NCBI RefSeq assembly: GCF_000970025.1
Contig: NZ_CP009528.1
Span: 2,839,168 to 2,903,167 of the forward strand
Direction of reading: 5' to 3'
Length of the DNA stretch: 64,000 bases
Source of the DNA: Methanosarcina barkeri MS
GTDB taxonomy: Archaea > Halobacteriota > Methanosarcinia > Methanosarcinales > Methanosarcinaceae
Below, piece by piece: positions 2,306 through 17,862 of this stretch. Made by a program: the position numbers and the translations under genes. How positions within the stretch are numbered: the stretch's first letter is position 1; the number at the start of each line of letters is the position of its first letter. The notes beneath the pieces are model-generated. The model made no database searches and was not told the origin of the DNA. It saw only the letters and a program-made list of their open reading frames with translations.

Positions 2306-3136
2306 TTAGTGCTCGTGTATATGCTCTCTATAGTGAACATGCAGATGTTCGTGCACAAGCTTGCCATGAACGTGCATGTGTTCATGGATAAGATTTGTAG
2401 TAAGTAAAAGTTCCCTGTTATTGAGTACTGTTTCCACATTTCCGTCCACAACAATTCTATGATCTTCGCCCATAACTATGGCTCTTTTGCTAATCTGCTC
2501 TACTGTTTCAAGATCATGAGTAGCGGTAATTATCGTCTTTCCCGCTTTCCCAAGCTCCTGCAATAGCTCTACTAACCAGAGCTGAGTCCTTGGATCCAAT
2601 CCTGCGGTGGGCTCATCCAATAAAAGGACATCCGGGTTATTAGCCAAAACAGCTGCTATACAGACTTTTTTCTTCTCTCCTCCGCTCAGGGTATGAGGAG
2701 ATCGGTCTTTAAGCTTGGTAATCCCAATCATCTCCAGGACTTCCATCACTCTGGTTTTAACTTCTTCCGGAGTCATATTGAGCTGCATGGGTCCAAAGGC
2801 AACTTCTTCATAAACTGTGGAAGAGAAGAGTTGTACATCTGAGTTCTGAAAGACAAATCCTACTCTTTTCCTGAAATAAGACCTAAATTCATTATCTTTA
2901 ATGGCATCGAAAACATCTTCGCTTATCTGATTGTCAAAAGCATAGAATTCTCCCAAAGTAGGATATATAAGTCCATCTAGAAGGGTCAGTAGAGTCGATT
3001 TCCCACTGCCATTAGAGCCCATTATAGAGATTTGCTCACCTGGCTTTACTTTGAAGCTGATATCATTTAATGCATTTATTTTTCCAACATATGTATATGA
3101 TACATTTTTCACATCAAAAATTGTTTCCATGTTCAT
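2306..3136 (-). CDS. nikO: Nickel/cobalt ECF transporter ATPase (NikO/CbiO) with His-rich tail
   Basis: ABC ATPase of 276 residues that powers group I ECF uptake of Ni2+ or Co2+ from the cytoplasmic face. Walker A GSNGSGKST is at about 40-48, the signature LSGGEKKKV near 150, Walker B VLLLDEPTAGLDP near 170 and the switch His in TATHDLE near 207. The last 26 residues carry 11 histidines in HxH spacing, an unusual metal-binding tail that supports a nickel/cobalt role. It is the last gene of nikM-nikN-(gap)-nikQ-nikO and starts one base after nikQ ends. AAGGTGA lies just before the ATG; a second ATG two codons in has better spacing. Nickel is favoured by the NikM/NikN type, but cobalt is not excluded. 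Confidence 0.92.
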   Translation of the reverse strand: MNMETIFDVKNVSYTYVGKINALNDISFKVKPGEQISIMGSNGSGKSTLLTLLDGLIYPTLGEFYAFDNQISEDVFDAIKDNEFRSYFRKRVGFVFQNSDVQLFSSTVYEEVAFGPMQLNMTPEEVKTRVMEVLEMIGITKLKDRSPHTLSGGEKKKVCIAAVLANNPDVLLLDEPTAGLDPRTQLWLVELLQELGKAGKTIITATHDLETVEQISKRAIVMGEDHRIVVDGNVETVLNNRELLLTTNLIHEHMHVHGKLVHEHLHVHYREHIHEH

Positions 3137-3137
3137 A

Positions 3138-4073
3138 TCACCTTATGATGTTATGGGAGATCAACACTAGCAATACACTCATGGATACCGCAATTGCTCC
3201 TGAAATGTAATCGCGATTGCGCATTTTGAACTCCTGCATTATCTTAACATCACCATTGTACCCTCTGGACATCATGGCTGCATGAACTTTTTCACTTGTA
3301 TCCAGAGACCTTATTAGCGTATAGCCGATTCGTCCACCAACCCATTTCTGCTCCTCGAACATGCCTCCAGTCTTTATGGTTCTGGCTTTCTTGGCAATAT
3401 ATATCTCCCGCACCATATCAGTTAGCAAAAAAATGTATCTGTAGGCCATCTCCAGCGTGAAAACATAGATTTTAGGAACTCCCACCGAGCGCAGGGATTT
3501 AAAAAGAACCTTCTGAGGTGTGGTGAGAAAAAGCAAAACTACGGCAGATACGCATGCTGCGACACGCATTATAAATATCACAGCAAAATTAACGCCCTGT
3601 TTGGTGATGTATATGCTATCTGGAAGTGAAAATGGTCCCAGGTGTGCCCCAGAGCCCAGATAAACTAACCTGATAAGAGGATCTCCTGGAAAAAAGACAT
3701 TGAAAATCATTGGTATGGCAATGATTCCTGCAAAAATTGGTATGAAGAGCCACACCCGCTTGATAAAGAATAAAACATCGATCTTGCTGAGATATGCAAA
3801 AAGCAGAGTAAGCATATAAACAAAGATCAGTAATCTCAGGTCTCCGATTAAACTCGTTGCGAATATCACGGCCAGGATGGAAATCAGCTTGGCTCTAGGG
3901 TCCAAACTCTGGAGGAAACCATCGCGTTTAGAGAAGCTATCTGAGACAAAAGCTTCTTCCAAAAAGCCAAAGATTCCGTCAATCGTCTTTCCTATGAAAC
4001 CCTTCTTACCGTGATGCACCGCTGAGCACCGGCATGGACCGGTATCTGTTTTTGTCATCCAATCTGGGATCAT
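3138..4073 (-). CDS. nikQ: Nickel/cobalt ECF transporter transmembrane protein (NikQ/CbiQ)
   Basis: The 311-residue T-component, with about five hydrophobic segments. It carries the CbiQ-type coupling helices that contact the ATPase: the AYRYIFLLTDMVREIYIAKKAR region and RSLDTSEKVHAAMMSRGYNG near the C-terminus. The cytoplasmic N-terminus has an extra Cys/His-containing stretch (GPCRCSAVHHGKK) that could bind metal. GGGTGA precedes the ATG. A 309-bp gap with a long inverted repeat separates it from nikN, so it may have its own promoter or an RNA processing site. Confidence 0.92.
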   Translation of the reverse strand: MIPDWMTKTDTGPCRCSAVHHGKKGFIGKTIDGIFGFLEEAFVSDSFSKRDGFLQSLDPRAKLISILAVIFATSLIGDLRLLIFVYMLTLLFAYLSKIDVLFFIKRVWLFIPIFAGIIAIPMIFNVFFPGDPLIRLVYLGSGAHLGPFSLPDSIYITKQGVNFAVIFIMRVAACVSAVVLLFLTTPQKVLFKSLRSVGVPKIYVFTLEMAYRYIFLLTDMVREIYIAKKARTIKTGGMFEEQKWVGGRIGYTLIRSLDTSEKVHAAMMSRGYNGDVKIMQEFKMRNRDYISGAIAVSMSVLLVLISHNIIR

Positions 4074-4239
4074 TGTTCACCCGCTTTAAAACCTGAATTC
4101 CAGCTAGTATTAAAATATGATATGAGTTAATTAAAAATAAACAAAAATTAAAATTATAAAAAGGTGTCGATTTTATACAAAATTTTAGATTACATAAGTC
4201 ATCGGGAAACGAATTTTACATAGAGAGAACCAAATTATA

Positions 4240-4324
4240 GAGAATTTCAATAAATCTCATATTTACCAATTTTTTATAAGTATTATAAACAATCCATCAA
4301 ACTCGCAGGTTTATTGAAATTCTC
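4240..4324. repeat. 15-bp perfect inverted repeat between nikN and nikQ
   Basis: GAGAATTTCAATAAA at 4240-4254 is exactly complementary to TTTATTGAAATTCTC at 4310-4324, with a 55-bp AT-rich interior. The transcript would form a long hairpin inside the nikMNQO operon. It could be an RNA stability or processing element or a very small MITE. The rest of the 4074-4382 gap shows no gene. Confidence 0.75.
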
Positions 4325-4382
4325 ACAATACCAAGTATTTGGTTTTCAATTTATAGCAAGCTCACAATAATATTTAAAGAGT

Positions 4383-4697
4383 TTAATTTTTGGCGGCTTT
4401 TTTTCCTATAAAATACAGGAGGCCACCGCCGATTACTACACCTATCACTGCTGACAGAATATATGCTACAGAAGACATACTCATCGACTCATCGCCACCC
4501 ACAAAAGCATAATCAGGCATTGGAGCGCTCCAAAGATCCGAGAGCTCTTCAAGTCCTGGAGGCACAAAACCAAGCTTCTCCTTGACCTCTTCAGGCCCCC
4601 ATTCACCGAAGGTTTCACCAACGGCCAAAAGACCCAGTGGTGCAAAAATCATAAGTATTATCAAGCCAATGCTTAAGTTTCTTATTATTTTCTCCAT
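4383..4697 (-). CDS. nikN: PDGLE-domain protein of the nickel/cobalt transporter (NikN)
   Basis: A 104-residue protein with an N-terminal hydrophobic helix (about 9-28), an extracellular domain with the PDGLE-family core (GPEEVKEKLGFVPPGLEEL) and a C-terminal helix (about 77-98) ending in KKAAKN. PDGLE/NikN proteins are the small accessory subunit that works with NikM in nickel ECF transporters, in place of CbiN of cobalt systems. It begins 10 bp after nikM ends, so the two are surely co-transcribed. The presence of NikN rather than CbiN is the best argument for nickel as substrate. Confidence 0.88.
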   Translation of the reverse strand: MEKIIRNLSIGLIILMIFAPLGLLAVGETFGEWGPEEVKEKLGFVPPGLEELSDLWSAPMPDYAFVGGDESMSMSSVAYILSAVIGVVIGGGLLYFIGKKAAKN

Positions 4698-4706
4698 GTT
4701 CTCACC

Positions 4707-5426
4707 TCAGGCTGTGACTGCCTTCTTCATTTTACCCTTCTGCACTTCTGATTTTTCTCTATAAAATAGAGACACATCCGTTCTCTGGATATAGGCAAAA
4801 ATAATTGCGGTAATCACTGCTTCCAGAATGCTAAATCCAAAAGCATGTTCTATTACCATGGCAGGAACAGTTACACTCAATGGGTAGGGCATATACAGTG
4901 GGGTTCCAGCAGCCGTGTGTTGCAAGATAGGCTGTATTCCGAATTCAACACCTGTACAGAAAGCTGCTATGGTCAGAGAACACCAACCAGCTATAGCCGA
5001 AGCAATAATTCTCTTAGAGGACGTGATATCAGAATTTCCGCTAATAAGCTTATAAACATAATAACCGACAAAGGGTATTACAACTCCCATATTGAAGCAA
5101 TTCGCGGCTATGGCCGTAATTCCTCCATCACCGAATATCAATGCCTGCAATACCAGAGTTACAGAAATAGCTATCACTCCTGCCCAGGGACCGAGAACGA
5201 TGCCGATAATTGCGCCTCCAACGGCGTGACCCGTGCTACCTCCTGGAATAGGTACATTGAACATCATTATTACAAATGAAAAAGCAGCTGATAGTGCCAG
5301 CAGAGGGACCTGTCTGGACTTAAGTTCTGTGTTCAGTTTTTTTCCGGCATAATACCATATCGGGATCATAATAATCCAAAACGCGACATAGGTATACGGC
5401 CCTAGATATCCATCTGGAATATGCAT
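4707..5426 (-). CDS. nikM: Nickel/cobalt ECF transporter substrate-binding subunit (NikM/CbiM)
   Basis: The 239-residue S-component begins MHIPDGYL. In NikM/CbiM the His at position 2 inserts into the protein and binds the metal, together with a His at about 67, here in GGSTGHAVGG, with His at position 67. About seven membrane segments follow. It is the first gene of a leftward operon nikM-nikN-nikQ-nikO. A TATA box about 65 bp upstream and an AAGGGAAG ribosome site support the start. Nickel supply matters here because methyl-CoM reductase, CODH and hydrogenases need it. Confidence 0.93.
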   Translation of the reverse strand: MHIPDGYLGPYTYVAFWIIMIPIWYYAGKKLNTELKSRQVPLLALSAAFSFVIMMFNVPIPGGSTGHAVGGAIIGIVLGPWAGVIAISVTLVLQALIFGDGGITAIAANCFNMGVVIPFVGYYVYKLISGNSDITSSKRIIASAIAGWCSLTIAAFCTGVEFGIQPILQHTAAGTPLYMPYPLSVTVPAMVIEHAFGFSILEAVITAIIFAYIQRTDVSLFYREKSEVQKGKMKKAVTA

Positions 5427-5488
5427 TTTTCTTTCTTCCCTTATTTATTTTTAAAAATTATAACTGAGAATCTTTATTTTGACGAGTA

Positions 5489-5502
5489 ATTTTATATAAT
5501 TT
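5489..5502 (-). promoter_or_regulatory. Probable TATA box of nikMNQO
   Basis: On the minus strand the sequence reads AAATTATATAAAAT, close to the archaeal TATA consensus. Transcription should start about 25 nt downstream, giving a leader of roughly 40-45 nt before the nikM ATG. No clear NikR-type palindrome was seen beside it. Confidence 0.45.
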
Positions 5503-5892
5503 AGAATATTTTTTGAAAGAAAGGGAATTCAGCTTCTTTATATATTTTACAACATTTTGCTAGTTATTTTTCTGAACAGTGTCCTGACATGGCAGGATTG
5601 TTCTATATTACTTATATATATTTTGGTATTACTTTTTTTGATAAATTAATATCTTACATATAATTCAATATCCATATTTAATCCGTAAATAAAATTAAGT
5701 GCTCTTATCTCTATTTTTTATATCCAAATAGTTATTATTAAATGATTTTATATCATCTTTGTAAAAATTCTATTTATAAATCAACATTAAAAGGCTGAAA
5801 AGACGTGAGTAAAAATAGATCAAACCATTCAGTTCAAATTAATGGAGATTTTTTAGGGAATTTTTACGGGTCCTTATGTCCTTCTTTAATTA

Positions 5893-6031
5893 TCTGAACC
5901 TTATCCCTATCTGCTTTCACAGACAGGGTGAAAAGAAATTCAGGTACTTAAACTATTCAGGAGGTAGTTTAAGTTTTGTGTCTGTTCGCAAGAGACATAT
6001 TTACCTATACTACTAATGATATTTAACACTT
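5893..6031 (-). ncRNA. Candidate structured small RNA, copy A
   Basis: A 139-nt element shared with 16578-16715. It has (plus-strand terms) an outer helix CTGAA...TTCAGG at 5894-5944, a perfect 10-bp hairpin ACTTAAACTA/TAGTTTAAGT at 5946-5974 whose loop contains AGGAGG, a hairpin TGTCT-GTTCGCAAG-AGACA at 5979-5997 and the conserved block ATTTAACACTT at 6021-6031. I infer the minus strand: GTGTTAAATA would then be a TATA-like box about 25 nt before the first hairpin, and the loop would read CCUCCU, able to pair with Shine-Dalgarno sites. The strand and function are not proven. Confidence 0.45.
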
Positions 6032-6101
6032 ACTTTTTGTTTTTTATTACTAGATCTTATTTTTTTCTGTTACGTTGTTACATATTTGACGAACTCAATT
6101 T

Positions 6102-6171
6102 GAAGAAATCAGTTTGAAGAAATCAGTTTGAAGAAATCAGTTTGAAGAAATCAGTTTGAAGAAATTAGTTT
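6102..6171. repeat. 14-bp tandem repeat, five copies
   Basis: The unit GAAGAAATCAGTTT is repeated five times (last copy with one change), with degenerate flanks. It is noncoding and lies between element A and the small ORF at 6230. Confidence 0.85.
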
Positions 6172-6229
6172 CTTGGGCGTTTACTGTTTAACAATGGCTG
6201 GCAAAATGGCTGGCAAATATTGAACATGA

Positions 6230-6583
6230 GTGGAGAGCCTTAAATTAAGAAAATTTTTCAATATATCCGTTCTCAAAACCTTAAAATCAGCATTTTCGAG
6301 GGTAATAAAGACTCACTTGCAGAGCTCGATTGGGATTCTGTACTGGGTAGCAGGGCTCGCTGAACCTAAAAAACGCATCTTCAGGAACTTCCATTCGATT
6401 ATAAAAAATAGAAAACCAGAATCTGAAAAATCTATTTCAGTGTGCTACCGTGACTACAGTGGTATGAGACAGTTGCTCTATTGGCCACCCCAACCAGAAT
6501 ATATCAAAAGGTTCCGAAAAATAAAAGATATTTATCCAGATGAAAAGATAAATAACACCCTGGTCTTCCCGGAGTGTGAATAA
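6230..6583 (+). CDS. Doubtful 117-residue ORF
   Basis: Not recognised. The reading frame is open from an ATG but has no clear ribosome binding site, the product has no hydrophobic segment or motif, and it sits in a repeat-rich intergenic region. A Trp/Tyr-rich part (RQLLYWPPQPEYIKRFRKIKDIYPDEK) looks more protein-like than chance. It could be a decayed gene fragment or noncoding. Confidence 0.25.
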   Translation: MESLKLRKFFNISVLKTLKSAFSRVIKTHLQSSIGILYWVAGLAEPKKRIFRNFHSIIKNRKPESEKSISVCYRDYSGMRQLLYWPPQPEYIKRFRKIKDIYPDEKINNTLVFPECE

Positions 6584-6620
6584 CATTCCAAAAATTGAGA
6601 TCTTATGAAATTAATATTTA

Positions 6621-6775
6621 AGTTAATCCCAAAAATTATAATTGTGTCTCTGAACCTCGTATTTGGAATAATCAATAGAGTTCCAGATCATAAAACCTAG
6701 TTTTGGAACTCTCACTGATTTTATAGTTCTGGAACTTCATTGATTTGAGAATAAAATTGGTTTTGGGATGAACTA
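6621..6775. repeat. MITE-like inverted-repeat element, family R1, copy 1
   Basis: GTTAATCCCAAAA at the left and TTTTGGGATGAAC at the right are near-perfect inverted ends of a 155-bp noncoding element. Related ends with the core ATCCCAAAAC...GTTTTGGGAT occur at 16335-16466, 39337-39447, 40969-41221 and 56317-56445. Confidence 0.6.
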
Positions 6776-15420: not shown

Positions 15421-15880
15421 ACTTTTCTTGAGAAAATCACATTCCTGTTTTTAATGCAGTGTTGCAAGCTTCAAATCTTTTAAAATTCCTGGGTATTATG
15501 TCTACTCCCCTTTTTCTGCTTTTCCAAACAAACTTTGGAGTATTTCGATCCATCAAGAGCAAACTTATTTCCAATTAACGCCAAGAAGGATAAGAATCCG
15601 TATTTTATTAAACAATGGCACGAAAAAGTTATATACATCGTTCAGAAGTTTTAGTCAAACCTCATTTTAACTCCGTATGCCGAGAATAGATCATTTTTCT
15701 ATACAAAAAATGGCTATACTACTTTATGTCGGTTCTACATTACTAAAGTGTCCTTTGGTCATAATTTTATAATTAATATATTTATTTTATATTAATACCT
15801 ACATGAAAAAAGCATATATAGTAATACATACAATAAATAATGTAACATTTAGATCTAAATTAAACTGTATGGTGGGTATT

Positions 15881-16300
15881 ATGATAGAAACAGAACTTAT
15901 GAGGATAGGTGTCTCTCTTCCAGATACCCTTCTGAATAAATTCGATGAAATCGTTGAGAAAAGAGGTTATTCTTCCCGCTCGGAAGGCATGAGAGATGCT
16001 ATCAGGAGTTATATTTACCATTATGAATGGATAAACGACGTTAAGGGCTATCGTATAGGAACAATTGCGGTTATTTATGACAACAAGAGAAAAGACCTTG
16101 CAAATGTTTTAACAAATATCCAGCATAACTATTCTCACCTGATAAGATCTTCAGTGCATGTTTACCTTGATCGTGAAAATTGTTTTGAACTAATTTTTCT
16201 CAATGGAAAAGGTGAAGATATTGCAGAACTTACTGAATCTATAATAGCCTTGAAAGGAGTCAAATTTTCAAAACTTACAACTATATCATTAAATAAATAA
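15881..16300 (+). CDS. NikR-like nickel-responsive regulator, one ligand changed
   Basis: A 139-residue protein: N-terminal ribbon-helix-helix ([39 protein letters not shown]) and C-terminal ACT-like nickel-binding domain. Compared with E. coli NikR, the ligands equivalent to His76, His87 and Cys95 are present (His82, His93, Cys101), but the one equivalent to His89 is Tyr95. GGTGG precedes the ATG at 15881; upstream frame extension has no ribosome site. It could regulate the nikMNQO operon 10 kb away, though the Tyr change may alter metal choice or geometry. A TATA-like GCATATATAG lies near 15811. Confidence 0.85.
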
Positions 16301-16466: not shown

Positions 16467-16577
16467 TTATAAACAAGTATATTCTTCCTTTTAAGAAGCA
16501 TTGGCCTGGATGAGTTTTAAACTATTGAATACTAAGTAAAATAGGAAATTTTGAACTCAAATTTGAACGCGAAAACA

Positions 16578-16715
16578 CCTGAAATTCCTCACCCGCTGCA
16601 CATACAGGTAAAGAATTCAGGAGTTATGCGTTCAATTCACAGATTTAGGAGGCTTTTCTATTTTTGTCTGTTCGCTTAGACATAGATACATACGACAAAC
16701 TGTTATTTAACACTT
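16578..16715 (-). ncRNA. Candidate structured small RNA, copy B
   Basis: A 138-nt element matching 5893-6031 in length and block order: helix CCTGAAATTCCTCACC / GGTAAAGAATTCAGG (16578-16621), AGGAGG at 16647-16652, hairpin TGTCT-GTTCGCTT-AGACA (16665-16682) and ATTTAACACTT (16705-16715). The middle hairpin of copy A is not kept. It lies 280 bp after the NikR-like gene. As for copy A, the minus strand is preferred because a TATA-like block then precedes the first hairpin and CCUCCU is exposed. Confidence 0.45.
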
Positions 16716-17862
16716 TTCATTACATTTGTGATATTTGATATTATTATATTGAAAACTTGTATTACTAATTTTAGGTCAACATTCAGGAAAAAACACTTTA
16801 ACTTTTACAGTACCTGAGAAATATGAAGTTAATAACCTTAGTAGGACAGTGTTAACTAATTTATATTTAATAGTTTTCTTCTTTTTTGGTTCAATTGGGC
16901 TTGACAATTTTTATAAGTTTAAAAAAATTTATTATATATTCTATGTAATTCCATGCTTTTTTACTACAATCAAGATTGTAACGGGGACGCGAACATATCC
17001 CCATTGCTTGTAGGGGTGCGCCAGCGCAACGAGAGTAACAATATTCTCAAAATACAAAAATAGGCAAAGAATTTCCTAAATTACTTAAAGATAAATATCC
17101 TTCTCTTTTTGAAGACAGAAAATATTGAAGTACTATCACCAGGGCACTTCTCATGAATACTTTCTTGCAAACTTAACATAAATCTACTAAAATATATTAA
17201 AGTAGATAATTATTTATATGATCGACATGATCTAGCCCTCCATCACATGATTAAAAGTTCAAACTCCGCATTTCTTGCAGTATACCGATGTTTTTTTCTC
17301 CTTCTTTTTGGGGATCAGTTCCTTGCTTAACAGGCTTTTATTTACGCTGGTTTGTAGAGAAAATGATTATTCCGAACTGAAAGTATTAAAGACAAACAGA
17401 TCAAAAATTAAACGTAAGAACGCCATACAATTCAATATCTATGAACGCAATCTACTAAATATAAACTTTAAAACCGGTTATTTACTGATTAATACTTTCA
17501 CTCCGCTATATTACTCTATTAATAAAAAGTCTGCATTCTGCTGTATGTATCGAAAAACGGGGTAGCATGAATCCGAAAATTGTCATATATATGAGGAGTG
17601 AAATCAACGTCATGTAATTATCACTACTTATTTATAATAATATATGGAATTATCTGCCTGAAAAAAATGGCTCGATAAATAAATATAAACTTTAGGTTTT
17701 TCAAAAAAGTTTCTTAAAATTCATAAATTCATATCATTTCTGGATTTTTTAGAGATCTAACTTAAAAATCCAGAATTTACTTTAATCTAAAATCCAGACT
17801 TTATTCTGACCTTAAATTTTCATCTAACCGATTCAACTGGACAAAAACCCGAGAGAAGGAAA
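16716..17862. other. Gene-poor stretch upstream of uvrA
   Basis: Very AT-rich except for a short GC-rich island at 16980-17035 that can form two hairpins (GGGGA...TCCCC at 16983-17002 and TGCG-CCAG-CGCA at 17017-17028), possibly a small structured RNA. The 96-codon open frame at 17275 has no ribosome site and no protein features, and is not called. The uvrA promoter should lie near the right end. Confidence 0.4.

Follow-up and report, generated by a model that had tools for sequence, protein, structure and literature searches.

Both acetate use and carbon fixation in Methanosarcina, organisms that are large sources of biogenic methane, centre on a nickel enzyme, the ACDS complex (CODH/acetyl-CoA synthase). 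In M. mazei, the translation of ACDS is repressed by the small RNA sRNA41, which masks the ribosome-binding sites (PMC5867862); this RNA is expressed, its level is lower under nitrogen limitation, and the link that has been published for it is to nitrogen, not to nickel (PMC5867862). Two other RNAs of M. mazei, sRNA154 and sRNA162, are also archaeal intergenic sRNAs, and one loop of sRNA154 masks a ribosome-binding site. Small RNAs governed by metal sensors have been described in bacteria: NikS of Helicobacter pylori is controlled by NikR and acts on virulence genes, and RyhB (Fur, iron sparing) and s-SodF (Nur, nickel) share a logic in which a metal repressor acts through an sRNA to give less of a metal enzyme. 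Among the metal-sensing regulators covered by a recent bacterial review, the nickel cases are only NikR-NikS and Nur-s-SodF.

The window (the whole stretch of DNA analysed, 64,000 nucleotides of Methanosarcina barkeri MS) carries on its minus strand an element, here called copy A, which lies upstream of nikMNQO, where the first-pass annotation had placed it, 463 nt before the start of nikM and on the same strand as that gene. Copy A and a second element at 16578-16715 (copy B) had been proposed to represent a new small-RNA family, with no connection drawn to nickel control or to ACDS. Judged by sequence comparison, copy A is a real small-RNA gene and belongs with sRNA41 (Rfam RF02905), of which it is a diverged relative. 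The novelty lies in the proposed nickel wiring and in the proposed division between cdhA and cdhC; copy A itself is a diverged paralogue of an RNA already described. The features involved are collected in Table 1.

Table 1. Features of copy A, copy B and their nickel-gene surroundings (positions in the window)
Feature	Position	Strand	Basis or remark
nikO/cbiO	2306-3136	minus	nikMNQO operon
nikQ/cbiQ	3138-4073	minus	nikMNQO operon
nikN-like PDGLE protein	4383-4697	minus	nikMNQO operon, within 2306..4697
nikM/cbiM (CbiM family), first gene of Ni/Co ECF transporter operon	4707..5426	minus	domain match
NikR-type operator GTAATAC-N14-GTAATAT, nikM promoter	5605..5632	minus	pattern match
Copy A, predicted sRNA41-related RNA, A-type subfamily	5890..5994	minus	covariance-model match
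Copy A 3' stem-loop CCCUGUCUGUGAAAGCAGAUAGGG	5905..5928	minus	best supported helix of the sRNA41 family
Copy A 10-bp hairpin, CCUCCUGAA in loop	5946..5974	minus	folding and orthologue comparison
UACCUCCUGAAUA in copy A, complementary to cdhA ribosome-binding site UAUUUAGGAGGUA	5954..5966	minus	13 bp, one G-U
Copy A 5' hairpin UGUCU-CUUGCGAAC-AGACA	5979..5997	minus	kept in most family copies
TATA box TGTTAAATA of copy A	6020..6028	minus	begins 34 nt before model start
Weak NikR-type operator over copy A TATA box, GTAATAA-N14-GTGTTAA	6023..6050	minus	score 2.8
nikR (nickel-responsive repressor)	15803..16300	plus	convergent with copy B
NikR-type operator GTAATAC-N14-GTAACAT before nikR	15821..15848	plus	pattern match
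Copy B, sRNA41	16569..16681	minus	RF02905, above gathering score
TATA box of copy B	16704..16712	minus	promoter comparison
NikR-type operator O1 of copy B, GTAATAC-N14-ATAATAT	16738..16765	minus	exact pattern, matrix score 12.0

The kinship of copy A with sRNA41 was established with two covariance models. Copy A aligns to model positions 1-113 of RF02905 with 44.3 bits (genome-wide E 6.3e-6), which is 0.7 bit short of the gathering score of 45 bits, and for this reason it is called here a diverged sRNA41-related paralogue; copy B exceeds that score with 54.8 bits (genome-wide E 2.9e-8). Since one Rfam model fits both elements at full length, the resemblance that had been noticed between them is not due to chance. 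A second model was built from 38 copies at other loci, leaving out copy A, copy B and all A-type copies; it gives 45.8 bits (E 7.5e-7) for copy A and recovers most of the copy A orthologues, and over 360 kb of unrelated sequence in this genome nothing scores above 20.9 bits with it. The Rfam match and the leave-out model together rule out a new family. A search of the interval 5400-6700 for other archaeal sRNA families of Rfam, at E values up to 10, gave no match, and copy A is, as far as its sequence tells, neither sRNA162 nor sRNA154, from which it would differ in targets and regulation.

The blocks that the first-pass annotation had listed as common to 5893-6031 and 16578-16715 were all recovered: TTCAGG at 5939-5944 (copy A) and 16616-16621 (copy B), TGTCTGTTCGCAAGAGACA at 5979-5997 with its counterpart near 16665, AGGAGG at 5959-5964 and near 16649, and ATTTAACACTT at 6021-6031 and 16705-16715. 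The last of these had been counted within the element. With the RNA encoded by the minus strand and its 5' end near 5994-5997, ATTTAACACTT has no place in it and belongs to the promoter, being the TATA-box region as read on the minus strand (AAGTGTTAAAT). The sequence AAAAGT[A/G]TTAAATA starts about 31-34 nt before the RNA in all but a few copies of the family, and the spacing between TATA box and RNA is near-constant over nearly all of them. A promoter scan designed for bacteria, not for archaea, returned nothing. The copy A promoter is directly preceded, at 6085-6171, by a tandem array in which the 14-bp unit TTTGAAGAAATCAG recurs about six times.

Read in the minus direction, copy A runs CUCUUGCGAACAGACACAAAACUUAAACUACCUCCUGAAUAGUUUAAGUACCUGAAUUUC... 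and finishes in a strong stem-loop, and the part matched by the model amounts to 105 nt; the transcript could be longer, since the first T5 run downstream on this strand comes only near 5815-5811. The fold has an energy of -30.4 kcal/mol (z = -4.7), which none of 200 shuffles equalled. The earlier view of the element as one of the sRNA type, on the minus strand, was right. An RNA on the plus strand was considered and set aside, given that the same 139 nt fold less well in that direction (z = -2.3 vs -3.7) and that the promoter is oriented the opposite way. Over the 64 family copies, 73.9% of cells hold standard pairs, against at most 46.5% in slid controls, and 23 of the 32 pairs show two-sided changes, so that the compensatory changes on which the original proposal had been made to depend are present. 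The 3' stem-loop is predicted by RNAalifold unaided, with two-sided changes in 7 of its 9 pairs. The 5' hairpin and the helix that presents the loop are less uniform family-wide (48% of cells each); the perfect 10-bp hairpin with CCUCCU in its loop, which had been described from the first reading and is real, is accordingly a trait of the copy A orthologue group. The loop itself is 9 nt long (5956-5964, minus).

In each of four genomes (G000, G004, G026, G030) a member of this orthologue group precedes nikM by 420-590 nt. In one orthologue (L090) the end pair of the hairpin is U-A instead of the A-U of copy A, and has thus changed on both sides; its 3' hairpin (L090:3060-3163) keeps the stem but has an apical loop that is inverted when compared with the three remaining orthologues. 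The wider subfamily of copy A (alignment A2, 24 sequences) carries CTCT..CGAACAGACAC at the 5' end. Applied to the whole genome, RF02905 finds four copies, with 88.5, 54.8 (copy B), 47.9 and 44.3 bits (copy A), and a wider model adds a fifth, A-like copy beside the second cbiM operon (C2:4058522-4058631), which brings the family to five copies in this genome; the number per Methanosarcina genome goes up to about eight. Among the 31 genomes of the genus, RF02905 gives 64 matches in 25 genomes and the wider model detects copies in 28, together with weak matches in two further genomes that both belong to one other genus. These last are weak A-type relatives from the same family of organisms (L215:3001-3117, L216:3001-3116).

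The neighbourhood of these copies is that of nickel genes. Of the 64 genus copies, 33 have a NikR or CbiM domain no more than 5 kb away, where 0.93 would be expected, and 10 of 28 further matches outside the first set of copies are also near nikR or cbiM; roughly half of the copies are not near nikR or nikM. Others adjoin genes for DUF3344 surface proteins, in clusters where nikR or nicotianamine synthase is present as well. DUF3344/PKD genes stand beside sRNA41 copies in L037, L038, L039, L040, L042, L054, L059 and L061, the gene and the sRNA copy being often convergent with nikR nearby, and the DUF3344 proteins may be part of nickel acquisition. Beside copy A lies the remnant of the C-terminal part of a nicotianamine synthase (6283-6580, plus strand), its frame broken near 6346, which is 67-73% identical over 78 aa to the PF03059 relatives in L061 and L089; longer copies of this gene adjoin nikR or cbiM in related genomes. 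Proteins of about 330-377 aa with no Pfam match also adjoin cbiM (L089:6264-7397 and homologues; P377), and a NikR-type operator precedes the start codon of their genes by about 15 nt (L048, L085, L089, L100).

The nickel genes and most of the sRNA copies have in common an operator-like element. Throughout the genus, nikM promoters carry GTAATAC-N14-GTAATAC over the TATA box. In the sequences analysed, the more general pattern GTNNTAC-N14-GTANNAC peaks at a spacing of 14 only, with seven exact sites against 0-2 at other spacings. The NikR signal of delta-proteobacteria has been given as GTGTTAC-[N13/14]-GTAACAC (PMC545781), and the geometry of the Methanosarcina operator equals it. In the window the operator of nikR falls inside the open reading frame assigned to that gene, the true start of which is probably downstream. 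Directly after the nikM operator, at 5575-5605 on the minus strand, the nikM leader contains a conserved hairpin, CCTGCCATGTCAGG, with variants in L082, L090 and L091; it is a possible cis element.

A matrix derived only from the promoters of nikM, nikR and the adjacent genes, with the sRNA sites excluded, locates the operator in the sRNA41 promoters at a constant distance from the TATA box, between 53 and 26 nt ahead of it, with a median score of 11.6. At this register 38 of the 64 sRNA promoters score 10 or more, compared with a fraction of 0.00075 of AT-rich background windows, and these counts are not independent events, since the copies are related by descent; none of 200 column-permuted matrices came near the real one. 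The exact pattern GTAATAC-N14-RTAAYAY occurs at five sites in the genome, three of them at nikM, nikR and copy B and the other two at the second cbiM and at the gene that precedes it, a result that speaks for specificity and not for discovery because the pattern was drawn up after the sites had been seen. Once one mismatch is allowed, as the sRNA41 copy at 1511705 requires, the pattern is found no more often than its reversed control. A different candidate, GTAT-N20-ATAC between the TATA box and the RNA start, fails as a NikR site for copies A and B; the conserved operator lies upstream.

Copy A itself has lost the strong operator: its score at the fixed register is -11.5, and O1 is degenerate. 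There is also a weaker register, over the TATA box; the site at this register is strong in one relative from the other genus (15.2) and is the sole one left in copy A, where its score of 2.8 is the highest of the 26 TATA-like sites sampled, copy A included.

The idea that the CCUCCU loop is suited to pairing with ribosome-binding sites, also put forward in the first reading, proved right, and the best partners are the starts of cdhA. When 394 gene starts are ranked as partners of copy A, the two cdhA genes take the first two places, and likewise for the fifth copy; for the 13-nt segment UACCUCCUGAAUA, the only partner in the genome (exact, or with G-U at its G) is the cdhA start. The starts of nikM, nikN and nikQ, considered as partners of copy A, rank poorly, at 322, 86 and 23 of 394. 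For canonical loops, trimmed to 13 nt, it is both cdhC that rank first of 394 gene starts, and the sequence complementary to the canonical loop, GATTTAGGAGG, is present at seven genome sites: two sRNA genes, two cdhC starts and three elsewhere. In nearly all genomes the cdhA sites read GGAGGUA and the cdhC sites GGAGGCG or GGAGGCA. The U-A that stands before CCUCCU in A-type copies near nikM suits the cdhA site AUUUAGGAGGUA, and the C-G or A-G that most canonical copies have there suits the cdhC site AUUUAGGAGGCG; U-A is found in 10 of 16 cbiM-adjacent copies vs 3 of 72 others. Of 400 random loops built around CCUCCU, 22 (5.5%) do as well as copy A, with the two cdhA genes in first and second place, and 15 put both cdhC at the top. 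Given this control, and given that the ribosome-binding sites of ACDS are strong Shine-Dalgarno sequences, target specificity is only moderately supported, and specific targeting of cdhA as a strong claim is weakened.

Taken as a whole, copy A resembles M. mazei sRNA41 in its full-length match, its 5' GUCU-AGAC hairpin, its CCUCCU loop, its 3' stem-loop, the same TATA box and the ACDS ribosome-binding sites as best partners. It differs in having the 10-bp hairpin that presents the loop, in having U-A rather than C-G before CCUCCU (cdhA rather than cdhC), in its lack of a strong upstream operator and in its score below gathering. We put at roughly 0.6 the probability that copy A is a trans-acting RNA of the nickel regulon whose loop represses ACDS translation by pairing. 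The transcript of copy A would expose the CCUCCU loop to the Shine-Dalgarno sequences of the ACDS mRNAs, cdhA in particular, and block their translation. The nickel-gene neighbourhood and the common operator suggest that sRNA41-type RNAs set the amount of a major nickel enzyme. The family appears to sit in the nickel regulon, beside nikR and nikM/cbiM and in most copies with an operator of the nikM/nikR type, so a family that blocks ACDS translation and is wired in this way would make ACDS synthesis follow the nickel supply, and to match this nickel-rich complex to that supply is its likely purpose.

The direction of such control would depend on where NikR binds. In the simplest version, that of nickel sparing, nickel-free NikR would leave the operator and the sRNA would be made; an operator over the TATA box implies repression by Ni-NikR, and hence sparing. 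Either sign is possible, given that the strong operator precedes the TATA box, where binding could activate. A broader proposal, against which we would lean slightly, is that the sRNA41 family is a multi-copy, NikR-controlled system of nickel sparing, which would be the first sRNA circuit for metal sparing among archaea, and in which nikM-linked A-type copies such as copy A silence cdhA (Ni-CODH) and the canonical copies linked to nikR silence cdhC (Ni acetyl-CoA synthase).

An ACDS regulator of the sRNA41 type need not have anything to do with nickel: the family could have come to its place in nickel islands by descent, with the operator-like element serving another regulator. The nitrogen data published for sRNA41, the weak operator of copy A and the location of several copies elsewhere than at nickel genes would all agree with this. 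Yet canonical copies remote from the nik genes (the 1511705 copy, with a score of 15.3, and G004 1864769) retain the operator, its exact pattern is limited in this genome to nickel genes and copy B, and the target is itself a nickel enzyme, which makes a role apart from nickel unlikely. It is more doubtful still that copy A is a decaying, unexpressed pseudogene of sRNA41 among other remnants. Its low Rfam score, its degenerate O1 and the adjoining nicotianamine synthase remnant could be read in that sense, but its fold is strong and its TATA box intact, loop and hairpin are conserved over four orthologues, the end pair of the hairpin has changed on both sides, and the inverted apical loop leaves the stem intact. 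That copy A is a cis leader or antisense element of nikMNQO, for example a nickel-sensing 5' UTR, might be supposed from its strand, its distance from nikM and its conservation in four genomes, but is very improbable, as nikM's own TATA box and operator lie in between, A-type copies at the second cbiM operon face away from cbiM (G003, G014, G028), and the nikM start is among the poorer pairing partners.

The trans-acting nickel-regulon RNA proposed here would have its nearest parallels among bacteria. If the predicted control by NikR holds, the sRNA41 family would be like NikS in its regulator, and unlike it in its targets and in being archaeal, with no known sequence kinship between the two; the logic would match that of RyhB and s-SodF, which are bacterial, if the direction of metal control in the sRNA41 family is the one that sparing would predict. 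In the openly searchable literature, outside which most subscription papers lie, no paper was found that treats sRNA41 together with nickel. Methanogens do adjust to nickel: its limitation reshapes their metabolism (PMC12350162), and in nickel-limited Methanothermobacter a NikR homologue goes up and NiFe-hydrogenases go down (PMC12350162). If NikR control is true, sRNA41 would gain a physiological trigger that is absent from the papers found, and archaea would gain a counterpart of metal sparing of the RyhB type.
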